Assembly: GCA_004299095.1 (NCBI GenBank)
Contig: SCQQ01000066.1
Span: 1 to 56,300 of the forward strand
DNA from: Burkholderiaceae bacterium
GTDB lineage: Bacteria > Pseudomonadota > Gammaproteobacteria > Burkholderiales > Burkholderiaceae_C
DNA length: 56,300 nt
Direction of reading: 5' to 3'
This document shows, one piece after another, positions 21,128-28,269 of the stretch. The position numbers and the translations under genes were made by a program. Below the pieces are notes generated by a model, which was not told where the DNA came from, did not search any database, and saw nothing but the letters and a program-made list of their open reading frames with translations. Position 1 is the stretch's first letter; every line of letters starts with the position of its first letter.

Positions 21128-21829
21128 TTAGCCCGCCGGAATCAGCAACCCGCGCTGCACCGCCGGTCGCGCGAGGAACGCGTCGAGCACGCGTTGCACC
21201 TGCGTGAAACGCTCGAACCGCACCAGCTCGCGCGCCTCGTAGAAACCGATCAGGTTGCGCACCCACGGGAAGATGGCGATGTCGGCAATGGTGTAGTCGC
21301 GGCCGAGCATCCAGTCGTGCCCCTGCAGGTGCCGGTCCAGCACGCCCAGCAGGCGCGCGCTCTCATTGACATAGCGGTCGCGCGGCCGCTTGTCCTCGAA
21401 ATCCTTGCCGCCGAATTTGTTGAAGAAGCCCACCTGCCCGAACATCGGGCCCACGCCGCCCATCTGGAACATCAGCCATTGCAGCGTGTGGTAGCGCGCC
21501 GCCGGGTCTTGCGGCAGGAAGCGGCCGGTCTTCTCCGCCAGGTAAATCAGGATGGCGCCCGATTCGAACAGCGCCAACGGCTGGCCGCCGGGTCCGTTGG
21601 GATCGAGGATGGCCGGGATCTTGTTGTTCGGGTTGAGCGACAGGAATTCGGGCGAGAGCTGGTCTTTGGCGTCGAAACTCACGCGGTGCACTTCGTACGG
21701 CAGCCCGGTTTCCTCCAGCATGATGGAGGCTTTCACGCCGTTGGGCGTGGCGAGCGAATAGAGCTGCAGGCGGTCCGGGTGCAGCGCCGGCCATTTGTGC
21801 GTGATGGGGAAATCCGGGAGTGCCGTCAT
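21128..21829 (-). CDS. Glutathione S-transferase, YghU/YfcG-like
   Basis: From the ATG at 21829 the product has 233 residues. The N-terminal thioredoxin-like domain shows L-Y-S-L-A-T-P-N-G-V-K-A-S-I-M-L-E-E (the nu-class wording), cis-Pro in N-N-K-I-P-A-I and the glutathione-binding L-F-E-S-G-A-I-L-I-Y-L-A. The helical C-terminal domain includes G-R-D-Y-T-I-A-D-I-A-I-F-P-W. Family knowledge: YghU and YfcG use two glutathiones or GSSG and show disulfide reductase and organic peroxide activity rather than classical conjugation. The gene diverges from the Cys-rich ABC operon across about 270 bases, so a shared thiol-related role is conceivable, though this is context only. Confidence 0.9.
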   Translation of the reverse strand: MTALPDFPITHKWPALHPDRLQLYSLATPNGVKASIMLEETGLPYEVHRVSFDAKDQLSPEFLSLNPNNKIPAILDPNGPGGQPLALFESGAILIYLAEKTGRFLPQDPAARYHTLQWLMFQMGGVGPMFGQVGFFNKFGGKDFEDKRPRDRYVNESARLLGVLDRHLQGHDWMLGRDYTIADIAIFPWVRNLIGFYEARELVRFERFTQVQRVLDAFLARPAVQRGLLIPAG

Positions 21830-22033
21830 GCGGCCGATGATAGCGAGCGGGCGCTGTGCCACTCGGCCATCGGGTGGCCGGCGCGCCGGCGTATTCGCCC
21901 CGCCTCCTGCCAGCGCGCCCCGCACGGAGCGCTGGACGCCTTCCCGGGTTTTTGTGGTCGGGACTCTTCGATTGCGCGTCGCAAGCTGCTGTTCGCATTC
22001 CTTCCTATATATCAATATATGGGCATAACGATT

Positions 22034-22048
22034 ATCTATTTCATAGAT
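22034..22048. promoter_or_regulatory. Candidate operator dyad upstream of the ABC operon
   Basis: ATCTAT-TTC-ATAGAT is a perfect six-base inverted repeat in an unusually AT-rich leader (about 22000-22065), about 55 bases before the start of the binding-protein gene. CATAAT at 22052-22057 could be a -10 box, which would place the dyad over the spacer and -35 region, a normal place for a repressor or a MerR-type activator. No regulator gene lies beside the operon. Confidence 0.4.
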
Positions 22049-22100
22049 TCTCATAATTTGACTAACATCCCTCGCAGACATTCAGGGAGGTGTTTCAAAT

Positions 22101-23171
22101 ATGAGTCATTGCTGCGATGGCGGCGGCGCCAGCCGAAAAGAGCCGGGAACGGGAATCGTGAGCCGCGGCATCAGCCGGCGCGCGCTGCTGCAGCGCCTGA
22201 GCGCGACCATGGGTGCCGCAGCCGCTGTGGCCGCGCTGCCTGCGTATGCGGCCGATGACAAGAAGCACCTGAAGCTGGCGTTCTGCAGCCAGCTTCTGTG
22301 CGTGGTGCCGTATGAAGTGACACGCGCCGCCGGCTTCTTCGCCGACCAAGGGCTGGACGTGCAACTGGTGTACAGCCGCGGCGGCTCGGCGGCGCTGCAG
22401 GCGCTCAATTCCGGCGGCGTGGATTACGCGGCGACCTCATTCGACGCGGCGCTGAATGCATTTGCGCACAAGGCCGACATCCAGCGTTTTGCCGAAACCG
22501 GCCGCCTGCCATTGTTCGCGTTGGCGACCGGACCGAAAACCGCATCGGCCATCCAGCACATCAGCGACTTGAAAGGCAAGACGGTGGGCGTGGCGCAGCT
22601 CGGCAACGCCGATTACGCGCTCACGCTGTTCCTGCTGAAGCAGGCGGGCGTCGATCCCAAGACGGTGCAGTTCGCGACGCTCGGGCCGAACCTGTACGAC
22701 GCGCTGCGCCTGGGGCAGGTCGACGCCGGCATGGTGCAGGAGCCGGGGCTCACGCTGCTGCAGCGCCAGGGCGCACGCGTGCTGGCGAACCTGATGGACT
22801 TGAAGGACGCCGATCACTATTTGGGCGGGCCGTACGCCTTCATGGGCGTGGCCATCCGCAAGGGTGAACTGGGCCAGCGCCAGGACGAAATGAAGAAGAT
22901 GGGCAAGGCGCTGGCGGCGGGCCTGGAATACACCAAGACAGCGCCGATTGCCGATCTGATCAAGGCGTTGCCTTCCGCGCTCATCGCGGGCGGCAACACC
23001 GAAGTGCTGGCATCCGCACTGAATGCGCACCGCGAGTCGCTGTACCCGTCCAAGGTGCAAATCGACCGCGCCGCCTGCGAGCGCGTGCTGCAGACGCAGC
23101 TCGACGCCGGCATCCTGAAGCAGACGGTGGACCTGGACGCGATCCTCGATACCTCGGTTCTGGGGGCGTGA
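22101..23171 (+). CDS. ABC transporter substrate-binding protein, NitT/TauT type, Cys-rich
   Basis: The 356-residue product has a Tat-like signal: S-R-R-A-L-L-Q-R-L at residues 25-33, a hydrophobic stretch and cleavage near A-Y-A (about 50). The N-terminus before the twin arginines carries a Cys pair (S-H-C-C-D-G-G-G). The mature protein has the SsuA/ThiY-type fold pattern: L-K-L-A-F-C-S-Q-L-L-C-V-V-P, A-A-G-F-F-A-D-Q-G-L-D-V-Q-L-V, L-N-S-G-G-V-D-Y-A-A, L-K-G-K-T-V-G-V and G-Q-V-D-A-G-M-V-Q-E-P-G. Cys62 and Cys67 lie in the first loop, where this family contacts ligand, and the family does not usually have them. It is therefore likely to bind a thiophilic ligand. The ribosome binding site gggagg supports the ATG at 22101. 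It heads a five-gene operon. Confidence 0.85.
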   Translation: MSHCCDGGGASRKEPGTGIVSRGISRRALLQRLSATMGAAAAVAALPAYAADDKKHLKLAFCSQLLCVVPYEVTRAAGFFADQGLDVQLVYSRGGSAALQALNSGGVDYAATSFDAALNAFAHKADIQRFAETGRLPLFALATGPKTASAIQHISDLKGKTVGVAQLGNADYALTLFLLKQAGVDPKTVQFATLGPNLYDALRLGQVDAGMVQEPGLTLLQRQGARVLANLMDLKDADHYLGGPYAFMGVAIRKGELGQRQDEMKKMGKALAAGLEYTKTAPIADLIKALPSALIAGGNTEVLASALNAHRESLYPSKVQIDRAACERVLQTQLDAGILKQTVDLDAILDTSVLGA

Positions 23172-23953
23172 TGCTCGATATCTCGAAGTTGACCTTCGGC
23201 TACGGCAGCGCCGAGCCGGTGCTGGAAAACGTGAGTTTCGGCGTGGAGCGTGGCGAATTCGTTTGCCTGATCGGCCCGTCGGGCTGCGGCAAGAGCACGC
23301 TGCTGCGCATCGTCATGGGACTGGCGCAAGCGCGCAGCGGCATCTTCAAGCTGGACGTGGATCGGCGCGACGTCGGCTTCCTGTTCCAGAGCAACGCGCT
23401 GCTGCCGTGGCGCACGGCGCGCGAGAACGTGGCGCTCGGCCTGCGCGCACGCGGTGCAACGCGCCAGGCCGCCGGCGTGGAAGCCGATCATTGGCTGGAA
23501 TCGGTCGGCCTGGCCGGCCTGGGCGAGCGCTACCCGCGCGAGCTCTCGGGCGGGCAGTGCAAGCGCGTGTCGATCGCGCAGGTGCTGGCGCTCAAGCCCC
23601 AGTTGCTGCTGATGGATGAGCCGTTTGCCTCGCTCGATGCGATCGTGCGCCGCTACATCACCGAGGATTTGCTCGCCTGGGTGGAAAGCGCGCAAACCAC
23701 GGTGCTGATGGTGACGCACGACCTGGAAGAAGCCGCGTCGATTTCGGACCGCGTGGTGATGATGAGCAACGGCCCGCGGGCGCGCGTGAAGGCCACCTTC
23801 GATGTGCCGTTCGGGCGCCCGCGCGACTTGGAGCACGTGCGCGAATCGCGCGGCTACGCATCGCTGGTGGCGCGGCTCTGGGGCGCGTTGTCCGAGGAAA
23901 TCCACGTTCCGCGCCGCAGCGCGCAACCGGCGCCCGCTGCACTGGCCGCCTGA
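23171..23953 (+). CDS. ABC transporter ATP-binding protein, NitT/TauT type
   Basis: The 260-residue ATPase has Walker A G-P-S-G-C-G-K-S-T at 35-43, a Q-loop in F-L-F-Q-S-N-A-L-L-P-W-R, the signature L-S-G-G-Q-C-K-R-V-S near residue 121, Walker B L-L-L-M-D-E-P-F-A-S-L-D near 138-149 and the H-loop V-T-H-D. The P-W-R after the Q-loop is typical of nitrate/sulfonate/taurine/thiamine-precursor importers. It drives import through the permease encoded next. The ATG overlaps the stop of the binding-protein gene (TGATG); a GTG one codon earlier is possible. Confidence 0.93.
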   Translation: MLDISKLTFGYGSAEPVLENVSFGVERGEFVCLIGPSGCGKSTLLRIVMGLAQARSGIFKLDVDRRDVGFLFQSNALLPWRTARENVALGLRARGATRQAAGVEADHWLESVGLAGLGERYPRELSGGQCKRVSIAQVLALKPQLLLMDEPFASLDAIVRRYITEDLLAWVESAQTTVLMVTHDLEEAASISDRVVMMSNGPRARVKATFDVPFGRPRDLEHVRESRGYASLVARLWGALSEEIHVPRRSAQPAPAALAA

Positions 23954-23975
23954 TTTTTTTCAAATTCCTCCGATC

Positions 23976-24743
23976 ATGAAATATCCCGGCCGCGCCGGCC
24001 TTTATCTGCGCCGCACGCTGGCGCTGGTCGCGGTGCTGATCTTCTGGCAGGCGGGCGTGGGCCTGCTGCACTGGATCAACCCGTTCTACCTGCCGGCGCC
24101 TTCGGCCATCGCCGCCACCCTCTACACGCTGTTTGCCGACGGCAGCATTTACACGCACCTGGAAGCCACCTTCGGCGCGGCGCTGGCCGGACTGGCGCTG
24201 GGACTCGCGACCGGCATCGTGCTGGGCTTCGTGGCCGCACTGGTGCCTCGGCTCGCGGAATTGCTGGAACCGGTGATGGTGCTTTTCAACGCCATACCGC
24301 GCGTGATCCTGGCGCCGCTTTTCATCATCTGGCTTGGCATCGGGCTGCCTTCCAAGATCGCGCTTTCGTTCATCCTGGTGGTGGTGATCATCTTTTTCTC
24401 GGTCTACAACGGCATCCGCGACGTCGATCGGCAACTGGTCGAGCGTGTGAAAACGCTGGGCGGCGGCACCGGCATGCTGATTCGCGACGTGTATATCCCG
24501 TCGGTGGTCTCCTGGGTCATGGGCAATCTGAAGGTGGCACTGGGATTTGCCTTTACCGGCGCCGTGGTGGGCGAGTTCGTGGCATCGACCCGCGGGCTGG
24601 GCTATCTGCTGGCGTTTGCGCAGTCGACCTACAACGCGGCGCTCAGCTTTGCCTTGATCGTGATCGTGGCCGCCGTGGTGATGCTACTGTTTGCCGGCGC
24701 GGCGCGGCTGGAGCGGCGCCTGCTGCGCTGGAAGTATTCGTGA
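23976..24743 (+). CDS. ABC transporter permease, NitT/TauT type
   Basis: A 255-residue membrane protein with about six helices of the BPD_transp_1 (SsuC/TauC-like) type. It starts with R-A-G-L-Y-L-R-R-T-L-A-L-V-A-V-L and the early motif F-Y-L-P-A-P-S-A-I. The cytoplasmic ATPase-coupling loop is visible as V-E-R-V-K-T-L-G-G-G-T-G-M-L-I-R-D-V-Y-I-P, and a later G-A-V-V-G-E-F-V-A-S-T-R-G-L-G-Y is the family's conserved stretch. The start at 23976 is the ATG of gatcatgaaa, 22 bases after the ATPase stop. It ends in an overlap with the next start (GTGA), tying the small cytoplasmic proteins to the transporter. Confidence 0.92.
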   Translation: MKYPGRAGLYLRRTLALVAVLIFWQAGVGLLHWINPFYLPAPSAIAATLYTLFADGSIYTHLEATFGAALAGLALGLATGIVLGFVAALVPRLAELLEPVMVLFNAIPRVILAPLFIIWLGIGLPSKIALSFILVVVIIFFSVYNGIRDVDRQLVERVKTLGGGTGMLIRDVYIPSVVSWVMGNLKVALGFAFTGAVVGEFVASTRGLGYLLAFAQSTYNAALSFALIVIVAAVVMLLFAGAARLERRLLRWKYS

Positions 24744-25156
24744 GCGCGTGCTGTTCCGAGGTCGGCAGCGCCTTGCGCCTGGCGCCGTTCGATTGCTTCC
24801 AGCGCGGTTTGGCCACGCGGCGCTTGCCGCGCCTGGCGATCGTCGGCCAACGCGTGGCCGGGCCGGATGGCCTGTGGGCGCAATTCAGCGTGCGGGTGCA
24901 GCGGCATCGACTGGCGGAGCTGCGCTTTGCCTGTGCGTCGTGTACCACGCTGATTGCCTGCTGCGAGGCGCTCGCCGAGTTGAATCGCGGCTGCGTACCG
25001 GATTCCATTTGCGTGCTGGACGCCGAAGCGCTCCGGGTGCGCCTGCCCGGCGTGCCGCGCGACAAATGGGATCGCGCCGCCCTCGCCGTGGCGGCCTTGC
25101 GCGCGGCGTTGGCGCCAGTCAAACGGTCGATTCTCGTTGCGCCGGAGGACGCGTGA
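24740..25156 (+). CDS. Divergent IscU/NifU-fold protein, Cys-rich
   Basis: The 138-residue product (GTG start overlapping the permease stop) has nine cysteines: 4, 5, 19, 65, 68, 74, 75, 85 and 91. The centre, L-A-E-L-R-F-A-C-A-S-C-T-T-L-I-A-C-C-E-A-L-A-E-L, aligns in pattern with the second-Cys helix of iron-sulfur scaffolds (F-x-x-x-G-C-x-x-A-I-A-S-S-S-x-x-T-E-L). The first scaffold cysteine (C-G-D) is replaced by ordinary residues (G-L-W-A-Q-F-S-V), and the H-C motif after it corresponds to D-K-W-D-R. New cysteines (C-x-x-C, C-C, and an N-terminal C-C) appear instead. I infer a repurposed fold that handles a thiophilic metal or a sulfur species delivered by the importer. A standard scaffold role is unlikely. 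Confidence 0.65.
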   Translation: MSACCSEVGSALRLAPFDCFQRGLATRRLPRLAIVGQRVAGPDGLWAQFSVRVQRHRLAELRFACASCTTLIACCEALAELNRGCVPDSICVLDAEALRVRLPGVPRDKWDRAALAVAALRAALAPVKRSILVAPEDA

Positions 25157-25491
25157 AAGTTGCCTACATTTTTTCCACCCAGAAGCACACGATTTCCTAC
25201 ATCCTGGCGCGCATGATCCTGCCGCAACTGGAGGAGCACCGCCACGGCGTCGAGGTGGTCGGCATGTTTTTCTTCGAGGACAACAACTACGTGCTGGTCG
25301 AAGGCAACCCGATCGGCGAGCGCCTGAAGAAAGTGGCCGACGCGAGCGGCATGCTGCTGATGGGTTGCGACCAGTGCTGCTACGAGCGTGAAATCGCCGA
25401 TCGCCTGATGGACGGCGTGCGTATCGGCTGCTTCCCCGATCTGTATGCGGCGCTGGCGACCAACATGCCGGATCACGTGATCACGCTGTAA
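25153..25491 (+). CDS. DsrE-like small protein with C-x2-C-C motif
   Basis: The 112-residue product reads from a GTG overlapping the previous stop (GTGA). The pattern fits the DsrE/DsrF-like alpha/beta fold: K-V-A-Y-I-F-S-T, a helix, V-E-V-V-G-M-F-F-F-E-D-N-N-Y-V-L, then a switch region ending M-L-L-M-G-C-D-Q-C-C-Y-E-R-E-I-A (Cys72, 75, 76) and I-G-C-F-P-D-L-Y (Cys93). DsrE-fold proteins commonly carry or relay persulfide sulfur on a cysteine at this position. Here the C-x2-C-C cluster could equally bind a soft metal. As I recall, a 'DsrE-related' protein is part of a proposed organometal transport cassette called SAO, but I cannot test that this is a homologue. Role inferred from its place in the ABC operon. 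Confidence 0.7.
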   Translation: MKVAYIFSTQKHTISYILARMILPQLEEHRHGVEVVGMFFFEDNNYVLVEGNPIGERLKKVADASGMLLMGCDQCCYEREIADRLMDGVRIGCFPDLYAALATNMPDHVITL

Positions 25492-25526: not shown

Positions 25527-25725
25527 CGTGTACGCTGAAACGTGGACGTCTGCGGCGAGCGCCGTGCGAGCGTGCTAAAAACGACGGGTTGCGCGGCGAT
25601 TTTTCACGCGGCCAGCGGCATTCGTTTCGACCGCGAGGTCGCGGGATGCCGGTCACGGCCGCAAAATCTCGATGCGCGCGCTGGCCTCGCGCCAATCCGC
25701 GAATTCACAGTCAACAGGAGCAACC

Positions 25726-26823
25726 ATGGGAAGAGCAGCAAAGGCGATCGTCTACCGCGAGGGCGGCCCGATCGCGATGGAGCCAATCGACGTGGCGCCG
25801 CCCAAGCGCGACGAGATCACGCTCAAGCTGGCGGCGTGCGGCGTGTGCCACAGCGATTTGTCGGCCACCAACGGCACCGTTCGCATGCCACCGCCGCTGG
25901 TGCTTGGGCACGAAGGCTTCGGCAGCGTGGTTGAGGTGGGCGAGGGCGTGGCCGGCTTCAAGGTGGGTGACGCGGTGCTCACGTCGTTTGCCCGCATGTG
26001 CGGCAAGTGCGCCGCCTGCGTGAGCGGCCACCCGGCGCGCTGCGAGCACGCAGCGGAAGCGTTTTCGACCCTGCCCGACGGCACGGTGCGCACGCACGAC
26101 GCCAAGGGCGAGCCGCTCAACGTCTTCTGCGGCCTGGGCGCCATGGCCGAATACGCCACCATCCACGTCGACAACGCCATCAAGGTGGACGCCCACGGCA
26201 TTCCGCCGGCGAGCGCTGCCATCGTCAGTTGCGCCGTCATGACCGGCGTCGGTTCGGTCACCAATACGGCCAAGGTCGAACCCGGTTCGCGCGTGGCCGT
26301 CTTCGGCCTGGGTGGCGTGGGGCTGAACGCCGTGCAGGGCGCGGTGCTCGCGGGCGCGGCCACCATCGTCGCGGTCGACACCAACGCCGACAAACTGGCA
26401 GCGGCCAAGCGCTTCGGCGCCACCGACGTGGTCAACGCCAAGGAGGAAGACATGGTCAAGGCCGTCCGCCGCCTGGGCCGCGTCGACTACGGCTTTGAAT
26501 GCGTGGGCTCGGGCGAACTGGTGTCGCAGGCCTACAAGTGCCTAGCGCCCGGCGGCACGCTGGTGATCGTGGGCGTGGCGCCCGGCAAAGATCAGGCCAC
26601 CTTCACACCGATTTCCATGGCGATGGAAGAGCGCTGCATCCGCGGCAGCACCTACGGCTCGGCGCGGCCGCAGAAAGACATTCCTGCGCTCTTGGCGCTG
26701 TACCGCGGCGGGCGTCTGAAGCTCGACGAGATGGTCACGCGCACCTATTCGATCGACCAGGGCCCGCAAGCCTTTGACGACTTGAAGGCCGGCCGCAACC
26801 TGCGCGGCGTAATCGTGTTTTAG
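25726..26823 (+). CDS. Zinc-dependent NAD(P) alcohol dehydrogenase
   Basis: A 365-residue medium-chain dehydrogenase. The catalytic zinc ligands are seen in G-V-C-H-S-D-L (Cys near 38) and G-H-E-G-F-G-S-V-V (His near 63). The structural zinc lobe is C-G-K-C-A-A-C-V-S-G-H-P-A-R-C, and the Rossmann fold has V-F-G-L-G-G-V-G-L-N-A-V-Q-G near residue 190. Length and wording are nearest to class III-like and NDMA-type alcohol dehydrogenases. It oxidises an alcohol whose identity cannot be read from sequence. A purine-rich ribosome binding site (acaggag) precedes the ATG. It sits 12 bases upstream of an aldehyde dehydrogenase gene, so the two probably oxidise an alcohol to the acid. Confidence 0.9.
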   Translation: MGRAAKAIVYREGGPIAMEPIDVAPPKRDEITLKLAACGVCHSDLSATNGTVRMPPPLVLGHEGFGSVVEVGEGVAGFKVGDAVLTSFARMCGKCAACVSGHPARCEHAAEAFSTLPDGTVRTHDAKGEPLNVFCGLGAMAEYATIHVDNAIKVDAHGIPPASAAIVSCAVMTGVGSVTNTAKVEPGSRVAVFGLGGVGLNAVQGAVLAGAATIVAVDTNADKLAAAKRFGATDVVNAKEEDMVKAVRRLGRVDYGFECVGSGELVSQAYKCLAPGGTLVIVGVAPGKDQATFTPISMAMEERCIRGSTYGSARPQKDIPALLALYRGGRLKLDEMVTRTYSIDQGPQAFDDLKAGRNLRGVIVF

Positions 26824-26835
26824 GAGTATTTGACG

Positions 26836-28269
26836 ATGGAACAGCACTTGCAGTTTTATATCGACGGCCGCTGGGTCGACCCGGTCAAGCCGGCGACCTG
26901 GGACGTGATCGACCCGTCGACCGAGCAGCCGATCGCGCAGATCAGCATGGGCTCGGCGGCCGACGTGGACGTTGCGGTGAAGGCCGCGCGGCGCGCGTTC
27001 GAGAGCTTCTCGCACACCACCAAGGACGAGCGCGTGGCGCTGCTGGAGCGCATCCTGGCCGAGTACAAGCGCCGCTACGACGACGTGGCGCAGGCCATTT
27101 CGCGCGAAATGGGCGCGCCCATCTGGCTCGCCAAGAAAGCGCAGGCGGCGATGGGCGTGGCGCACCTCATGCAGGCGATCAACGTGCTCAAGGGGTTCGA
27201 ATTCGTGCAGCAGAAAGGCACCTCGGCCGACCTGTACGAGCCGGTGGGCGTGGTCGGCATGATCACGCCGTGGAACTGGCCGGTGAACCAGATCATGTGC
27301 AAGGTGGCGCCGGCGCTGGCGGCGGGCTGCACCATGATCCTGAAGCCGTCGGAAATCGCGCCGCTCAGCGGCCTGCTGCTGGCCGAAGTGATGGATGCGG
27401 CCAAAGTGCCTGCGGGCGTCTTCAACCTGGTCAACGGCGACGGCGCGCACGTGGGCGAAGCGATGTCCAAGCACCCCGGCATCGACATGATGACGTTCAC
27501 CGGCTCGACGCGCGCCGGCATCGCCGTGGCCAAGGCTGCGGCCGATACCGTCAAGCGCGTGGCGCAAGAGCTGGGCGGCAAATCGGCCAACATCGTGCTG
27601 GGTGATGCCAACCTGGAACAAGCCGTGGCGGGCGGCGTGCGCGCGTGCTTCACCAACACTGGGCAAAGCTGCAATGCACCCACGCGCATGTTCGTGCCCC
27701 GGGCGCTGCAGGATCAGGCGATCGCCATCGCCAAGAAGACAGCCGAGGCCACGCCGGTGGGTGATCCCAGGGTCGACGGCAAGCACATCGGGCCGCTCTC
27801 AAGCAAGGCGCAGTTCGAGAAAGTGCAGGGCCTGATCCAGAAAGGCATCGCCGAAGGCGCCACGCTGGTGGCGGGCGGCGTCGGCCGGCCGGAGGGCTTC
27901 GCCAAGGGCTATTACGTCAAGCCCACCGTGTTTGCGAACGTGAAGAACGACATGACGATCGCGCAGCAGGAAATCTTCGGGCCGGTGCTCTCCATCCTGC
28001 CCTACGACAACGAGGACGAGGCGGTCAAGATGGCCAACGATTCGCCCTATGGCCTCTCGGGCTACGTGCAGTCGGGCGACCTGGAGCACGCACGGCGCGT
28101 GGCGGCGCGTCTGCGCACCGGTCAGGTACACCTGAATGGCGCGGCGCCCGATCCGGCGGCGGCGTTCGGCGGCTACAAGCAGTCGGGCAACGGCCGCGAA
28201 TGGGGCGAGCACGGCTTCCGCGAGTTCCTGGAAGTCAAAGCGGTCATGGGGTACAGCCCCAAGGCCTGA
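26836..28269 (+). CDS. Aldehyde dehydrogenase family protein
   Basis: A 477-residue NAD(P)-dependent aldehyde dehydrogenase. The active-site motifs are T-P-W-N-W-P-V-N (Asn near 150), the catalytic glutamate in Q-E-L-G-G-K-S-A-N-I-V (near 248) and the nucleophile in N-T-G-Q-S-C-N-A-P-T-R (Cys near 282). The cofactor motif F-T-G-S-T-R-A-G and the C-terminal F-G-G-Y-K-Q-S-G-N-G-R-E-W-G are also present. It should turn the aldehyde made by the adjacent alcohol dehydrogenase into a carboxylate. The chosen ATG at 26836 is preceded by taggag; an earlier TTG would add two residues. A terminator-like hairpin follows. Confidence 0.93.
   Translation: MEQHLQFYIDGRWVDPVKPATWDVIDPSTEQPIAQISMGSAADVDVAVKAARRAFESFSHTTKDERVALLERILAEYKRRYDDVAQAISREMGAPIWLAKKAQAAMGVAHLMQAINVLKGFEFVQQKGTSADLYEPVGVVGMITPWNWPVNQIMCKVAPALAAGCTMILKPSEIAPLSGLLLAEVMDAAKVPAGVFNLVNGDGAHVGEAMSKHPGIDMMTFTGSTRAGIAVAKAAADTVKRVAQELGGKSANIVLGDANLEQAVAGGVRACFTNTGQSCNAPTRMFVPRALQDQAIAIAKKTAEATPVGDPRVDGKHIGPLSSKAQFEKVQGLIQKGIAEGATLVAGGVGRPEGFAKGYYVKPTVFANVKNDMTIAQQEIFGPVLSILPYDNEDEAVKMANDSPYGLSGYVQSGDLEHARRVAARLRTGQVHLNGAAPDPAAAFGGYKQSGNGREWGEHGFREFLEVKAVMGYSPKA

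Follow-up and report, generated by a model that had tools for sequence, protein, structure and literature searches.

ATP-binding cassette (ABC) importers of the AztABCD and ZnuABC systems combine a solute-binding protein (SBP) of family PF01297 with an ABC-3 permease and import zinc, and the selenocysteine-assisted organometal (SAO) system couples an ABC importer to a SaoD-related protein. The SAO proteins are named, and the original SAO paper is cited, in PMC13188914 and PMC10418091. Here we describe a five-gene operon of the window, the 56,300-nucleotide stretch of contig SCQQ01000066.1 (positions 1–56,300) from the Burkholderiaceae bacterium assembly GCA_004299095.1. The operon encodes an ABC importer that shares its superfamily with the SsuABC/TauABC and NMT1/ThiY importers, together with a NifU-like and a SaoD-like protein; to our knowledge, no SaoD or NifU partners are known for importers of those classes. 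The operon comprises the following features.

22101–23171, + strand: NMT1/SsuA-class solute-binding protein, 356 amino acids (PF09084 NMT1, 85.4 bits, cut-off 20.5)
22110–22115, + strand: tandem Cys codons 4–5 (TGC TGC) in the predicted signal-peptide n-region of the binding protein
22284–22301, + strand: binding-protein codons 62–67, C-S-Q-L-L-C, the putative cleft motif
23171–23953, + strand: ABC ATPase, 260 amino acids (PF00005; 57% identity to the Thermus brockianus counterpart)
23976–24743, + strand: ABC permease, 255 amino acids (PF00528; 60% identity to the Thermus brockianus counterpart)
24740–25156, + strand: NifU_N/IscU-like protein, 138 amino acids, GTG start (PF01592, 25.1 bits, cut-off 22)
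25153–25491, + strand: SaoD/DsrE family protein, 112 amino acids, GTG start (NF040913, 174.5 bits, cut-off 152)

All five overlapping or closely spaced genes proposed by the first-pass annotation are present at 22101–25491 on the + strand, with every frame open and free of inner stops and with junctions, in order, of a 1-nucleotide overlap, a 22-nucleotide gap and two 4-nucleotide overlaps. The binding protein reaches the PF09084 gathering score and lies below the curated models for SsuA (TIGR01728, 88.2 of 163.5 bits) and TauA (TIGR01729, 40.3 of 304.25 bits); its nearest solved relative by profile is PDB 3qsl (E 9.8e-37). PF01297, the ZnuA/AztC class, is not among the nine Pfam matches (E up to 1). 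By comparison with AztABCD/ZnuABC, the window therefore carries a PF09084 binding protein and a PF00528 permease instead of PF01297 and ABC-3, whereas it shares with them the proposed cargo, zinc, and a SaoD-family protein, which is found in or beside such clusters in Thermus, Thermomicrobium, an Armatimonadota bin, HR32 and an unclassified bin. The operon resembles SAO in joining an ABC importer to a SaoD-related protein, but differs in its scores for SaoA (174.9 of 360 bits), SaoP (97.0 of 295) and SaoX (17.3 of 300), in that SaoB is not among the matches listed, and in having no selenocysteine codon (in-frame TGA). Its small protein exceeds the cut-off of the sister family NF040913 and falls below that of SaoD proper (NF040732, 150.7 of 169 bits). 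Membership in the SAO system was rejected because SaoD, SaoA, SaoP and SaoX all stay below their curated cut-offs, so that of the SAO kinship suggested earlier only a remote one, through NF040913, stands.

We propose that the operon specifies an ABC importer of a type other than ZnuA (PF01297) whose cargo is a thiophilic transition metal. Zinc, either free or in a small complex, would be the most likely such metal, and to this proposal we give slightly less than an even chance. The proposal draws on the company that SaoD keeps, a link to zinc/manganese-type import clusters that was not foreseen in the first-pass annotation. In seven of the 20 importer genomes that bear SaoD, the SaoD gene lies away from the importer, and four of these seven distant genes, each the only SaoD of its genome, are part of a cluster of zinc/manganese-type importer genes.

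L152: NTPase, AztC-like SBP, SaoD, ATPase (best match MntA), AztB-like permease, DUF488
L158: NTPase, AztC-like SBP, SaoD
L157: NTPase, Fur, ZnuA-family protein, SaoD
L153: MntC/AztC-like SBP, AztD-like protein, SaoD, CobW

No such cluster accompanies SaoD in the stretches examined for the other three (L154–L156). SaoD is also found in 32 plasmid records, and of the six in which its context was examined three are of the zinc/manganese type: Thermomicrobium roseum, with the order Fur-ZnuA-ATPase-permease-SaoD, Thermus oshimai, and the second copy in Thermus brockianus. The contexts in T. thermophilus HB27, T. thermophilus HB5018 and Natrononativus are of other kinds. ZnuA, AztD-like and CobW genes all occur among the Thermus contexts. 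Across 111 Deinococcota genomes, 27 have a SaoD match (24 over the cut-off), giving 28 loci, with two split genes counted once each and many loci coming from Thermus species, which are not independent. Sixteen of these loci have ZnuA, AztD-like or CobW genes within 1.5 kb, five have the window-type ATPase and permease, and seven have neither; for the 25 loci over the cut-off the numbers are 13, five and seven. Since SaoD sits in some loci with Azt/Znu-type importers and in others with the importer described here, the preferred explanation is that the two share a cargo or a cytosolic destination.

Single loci add further metal-related neighbours. In Microvirga massiliensis, WD40 and CobW genes are found about 0.6 kb past SaoD, on the opposite strand, and some 16 kb further along there is a ZnuA gene beside an apparent permease and ATPase of its own; in a Rhodospirillales bin the divergent neighbour of the importer is an Nramp gene. 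The CobW partner of SaoD in the zinc/manganese-type clusters is ZigA-like (236.5 of 600 bits), and the label 'zinc' is a prediction from family resemblance and from the CobW and Fur partners. According to PMC5387054, the Paracoccus denitrificans gene pden4169, for a predicted nitrate/sulfonate SBP, rises 6.9-fold under zinc depletion by RNA-seq, which shows no change in chelated medium, and 11-fold by quantitative PCR; the authors of that study interpret it as a nitrate transporter, and to place it in one clade with the window binding protein would be speculative. The openly available literature that we searched, which did not include the two Haft papers named in PMC13188914, showed no account of the operon or of a link between SaoD and zinc. 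As separate observations, nosD/nosL-type genes are annotated near SaoD in Thermus brockianus and Thermomicrobium roseum (L082:8506–10399 and L084:7087–10402) and may indicate a copper link, and the SaoD gene matches in two pieces, as if broken, in two Deinococcota genomes (L182/L186 and L183/L187) and in T. thermophilus HB5018 (L087).

The binding protein itself carries conserved thiols. Residues C4, C5, R26, R27, C62 and C67 are invariant in all 28 rows of alignment A2, which holds 28 of the 34 SBP candidates (L081, L096, L102, L113, L115 and L119 were left out; L115 and L119 look frame-broken, and in L120 no SBP gene was called). C-x4-C is found in all 34 binding proteins and an upstream Cys-Cys in 33, the exception being the frame-broken L115. 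One of the two patterns used in the species scan that found the relatives contains C62 and thus favours loci having it; 13 of the 33 loci, however, read FCGQ or TCGQ, which this pattern cannot match, and both cleft cysteines and the Cys-Cys are present in them too. For comparison, an outgroup was drawn from related genomes, made up of 14 NMT1-class proteins with identities of about 30%. All 11 of these that align at position 62 have Gly there, all 13 that align at position 67 have Tyr, and the positions of E72 and E214 hold Ser/Thr and Asp, respectively, in all 14. None of the 14 has the Cys-Cys or the C-x4-C, which sets the importer apart from SsuABC/TauABC and NMT1/ThiY importers; a CC does occur once, in L077, but ahead of the likely start. 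Judged by sequence, the binding proteins with the invariant cysteines are a distinct clade of the NMT1 class. The window genome holds another matching protein, a paralogue with 31% identity.

In the structure model of the binding protein (mean predicted local distance difference test (pLDDT) score 87.9; below 50 for residues 1–4 and 6–24), C62 ends strand 55–62 and C67 lies in the first turn of helix 65–76. The region between strand 1 and the next helix lines the cleft in this fold, and the C62/C67 pair is accordingly predicted at the cleft. Zinc, copper(I) or heavier d10 metals suit such a cleft because it carries thiols. The tandem cysteines lie further upstream, mostly at residues 3–4 when the start is taken as the nearest preceding start codon; a Shine-Dalgarno-like string (permissive pattern) stands ahead of 24 of 30 such starts, and between 2 and 28 residues separate the Cys-Cys from RR. 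The twin-arginine translocation (Tat) signal model TIGR01409 gives the window protein 15.1 bits against a cut-off of 16.7 and matches three of the 28 members at E 0.01. At 22101–22181, the Cys-Cys before RR is retained although the sequence and length of its surroundings differ among relatives, and the predicted mature protein would lose it.

The SaoD/DsrE-type protein has no visible signal peptide. Among 24 aligned SaoD proteins (alignment A4, in which L003 and L032 are the same gene), all of which match both NF040913 and NF040732 at E 0.001, C72, C75 and C93 are invariant, in the motifs C72-D-x-C75 and G-C93-F-P, and C76 is Ala in a longer subtype. The NifU-like protein matches PDB NifU/IscU structures by profile (best E 5e-12; model mean pLDDT 85.2). 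Of its cysteines, only C68 is invariant in the five proteins compared, with C75 in four, the N-terminal CC in three, and C74 in the window alone. The recurrent Cys pairs noted in the first-pass annotation therefore hold as to position and unevenly as to significance: C4, C5, C62 and C67 of the binding protein are invariant, but C76 of the DsrE-like protein and C74/C75 of the NifU-like protein are not. C68 aligns with one of what we take to be the three cluster-ligand cysteines of IscU; the third ligand position holds a residue other than Cys, and no conserved Cys lies ahead of C68. Compared with IscU/NifU scaffolds, the window protein thus shares the NifU_N domain and differs in having one invariant cysteine, and a standard iron–sulfur scaffold role appears unlikely for it.

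The importer recurs in distant genomes. Among plasmids, tblastn found a single strong relative, that of Thermus brockianus, in which binding protein (52.8% identity), ATPase, permease and SaoD are consecutive; an extra gene after SaoD, considered as a hidden NifU, was rejected because it shows no meaningful similarity. A one-genome-per-species scan seeded with the window and Thermus brockianus pair gave 38 loci, of which 33 (L088–L120, at least 47% identity) are relatives and five were judged unrelated NMT1 proteins; the scan would overlook any relative that lacks its two patterns. The relatives come from Pseudomonadota, Deinococcota, Actinomycetota, Armatimonadota, Tectomicrobia, one Myxococcota bin and others. 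The binding protein is followed by ATPase and permease in 32 of 33 (in L092 the contig stops within the ATPase), a SaoD/DsrE-type gene adjoins in 13, and the remaining 20 show importer genes only in the stretches examined. All five genes are kept in the four relatives in which a NifU-like gene adjoins (L088, L089, L105 and L116). The core unit is therefore a three-gene importer, and of the five-gene co-occurrence expected in the first-pass annotation the recurrence in distant genomes held; the constancy of the two small genes did not, and importer homologues lacking them, which had been named as counting against the idea, are common enough to weaken it in part.

In proteobacteria and Thermus the SaoD gene is downstream of the importer, whereas Nitriliruptoraceae and an Actinomycetota bin have it upstream. 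Five-gene loci occupy two separate positions of the binding-protein tree, implying at least two changes: the window groups with Ectothiorhodospiraceae (support 83/72) and Rhodospirillales with Xanthobacteraceae (96/90). The tree disagrees with species relationships, which points to horizontal transfer or loss. Within the window's class, no other importer was found in 369 genomes at E 1e-60 with at most five candidates scored per genome, and the best other matches in relatives are about 30% identical. The contig looks native, because the downstream aldehyde dehydrogenase is 71–77% identical to proteins of two same-genus genomes. The GC content (0.65) is similar to that of the remaining contig.

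Beyond the five genes, no neighbour is conserved in more than four of 34 loci, shadow reading frames over the core genes aside (70 of the 74 listed neighbour proteins were scanned for families). In the window, alcohol dehydrogenase and aldehyde dehydrogenase genes lie 3' of the operon (25672–28269) and have no consistent counterpart near other importer loci; a glutathione S-transferase gene (21128–22081, – strand) is divergent from the operon and has no match near them. In Chelativorans xinjiangense a DUF169 (COG2043) gene overlaps the end of the permease gene (L091:8527–9306).

SaoD is present in 20 of 33 importer genomes, compared with 30 of 369 genomes of the class sample (window genome included); among 149 relatives, it occurs in the window genome alone. 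These are raw genome counts, uncorrected for kinship. The SBP and SaoD distances correlate (r 0.66, n 15), and this correlation was set aside as proof of partnership because it can reflect shared descent.

On the zinc proposal, the binding protein would be exported by the Tat route, and C62/C67, with residues such as E72, D171 and E214, would hold the metal in the cleft. The permease and ATPase would then import it, and cytosolic SaoD (through C72, C75 and C93), helped here by the NifU-like protein, would accept it and pass it on, possibly to CobW/COG0523-type GTPases. A transition metal would be the cargo with a likelihood a little under one half, zinc being the leading candidate. The fuller picture, an undescribed class of zinc/d10-metal ABC importers built on a sulfonate/NMT1 scaffold, in which cleft thiolates capture the metal, Azt/Znu importers use the same cytosolic acceptor, and a signal-peptide Cys-Cys senses or gates metal before export, seems doubtful to us as a whole.

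A number of observations weigh against a zinc importer. All scanned AztC matches (138–230 of 350 bits) and clear AztD matches (131–173 of 400) are below the curated cut-offs, and MntC of Deinococcus outscores AztC for two of the four SBPs beside SaoD, so that these matches do not single out one metal. The window protein has Tyr at the position of H172, a possible ligand. Zur, Fur and actinobacterial Zur consensus strings, sought in the regions preceding 34 importer operons and 31 class SaoD loci by crude counts and without a chance test, gave nothing consistent, with scattered partial matches such as Fur 14/19 in the window and actinobacterial Zur 12/15 in L114. A ZnuA-family protein is also held by 32 of the 34 importer genomes, the window's included, and the idea that its absence marks replacement by the importer was rejected on this count. 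Thirteen of the 33 importer genomes, nine metagenome bins and four isolates by title, have no SaoD match. The enrichment of SaoD among importer genomes is partly taxonomic: SaoD over the cut-off is commoner in Deinococcota (24 of 111 genomes) than in the window's class, and three of the five importer genomes there have it. Conversely, 29 other class genomes with SaoD gave no importer match at E 1e-40, in a scan that itself had no control match (its profile does match the window's genome when run there), and the stretches around these SaoD genes gave no ZnuA, AztD-like, CobW or ABC-3 match.

The SaoD proteins of five-gene loci are of the short 112-amino-acid type, as are 28 of the 29 importer-less class SaoD genes. 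In these 29 genomes (L032–L060), 28 of the proteins are 71–78% identical to the window's, L032 being 49% identical and longer. No neighbour of these genes recurs in more than four loci, bar two clusters resembling shadow reading frames.

Several of the same genes can be read in terms of sulfur. An importer for a reduced sulfur or thiol compound, whose cargo would be bound by the cleft cysteines as a mixed disulfide or persulfide and its sulfur accepted in the cytosol by the DsrE-type and NifU-like proteins, is the strongest of the alternatives, and we consider it unlikely. SsuA, for sulfonates, is the SBP subfamily matched by all 28 members, and the sole PDB lead for SaoD is the sulfurtransferase DsrE, at an E of only 0.17. 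Two observations both speak for sulfur and add to the case against zinc: SaoD of Natrononativus sits with rhodanese, TsuA-like transporter and MoeB/MoaD genes, and a pyridoxal phosphate enzyme of Cys/Met metabolism lies near three of 34 importer loci (L095, L099 and L111; PF01053 in two of 70 scanned neighbours). However, zinc/manganese-type SaoD contexts are much more frequent among those examined, and, among the 25 commonest of 99 neighbour families, none related to sulfur is found beside the importer at more than three of 34 loci. Of the thiophilic ligands named in the first-pass annotation, genome context thus favours a metal, and a sulfur compound is retained as the alternative.

That the operon is an ordinary NMT1-class importer for sulfonate, nitrate or pyrimidine, with its cysteines forming a structural disulfide and the small genes as passengers, is improbable. 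The fold is common, and the importer often stands without a SaoD or NifU-like gene; this account is nevertheless hard to square with four invariant cysteines and their placement in the model, or with the adjacency of SaoD in two gene orders and on different branches of the SBP tree. Still less probable is a Cys-only SAO relative that would take up organometals, mercury species or other soft toxic metals, to which the NF040913 sister family, SaoP as the top NCBIfam match of the permease (97.0 bits) and SaoX matches in 17 of 28 SBPs at E 0.01 would point. However, the permease matches SsuC (95.9 bits) about as well as SaoP, every SAO match stays below its cut-off in a comparison whose genome searches did not extend to SaoL, SaoT and SaoC, and MerB (PF03243) gave no match in the window genome in a search without a positive control.

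If the zinc proposal is correct, the operon would represent a metal importer whose binding protein is not of the known ZnuA type and would offer a concrete model of the cytosolic hand-over of an imported metal. It would also provide a candidate function, that of a cytosolic metal acceptor, for the widespread family NF040913, which is named only by its resemblance to SaoD, and the findings bear on the role of SaoD in the SAO system.

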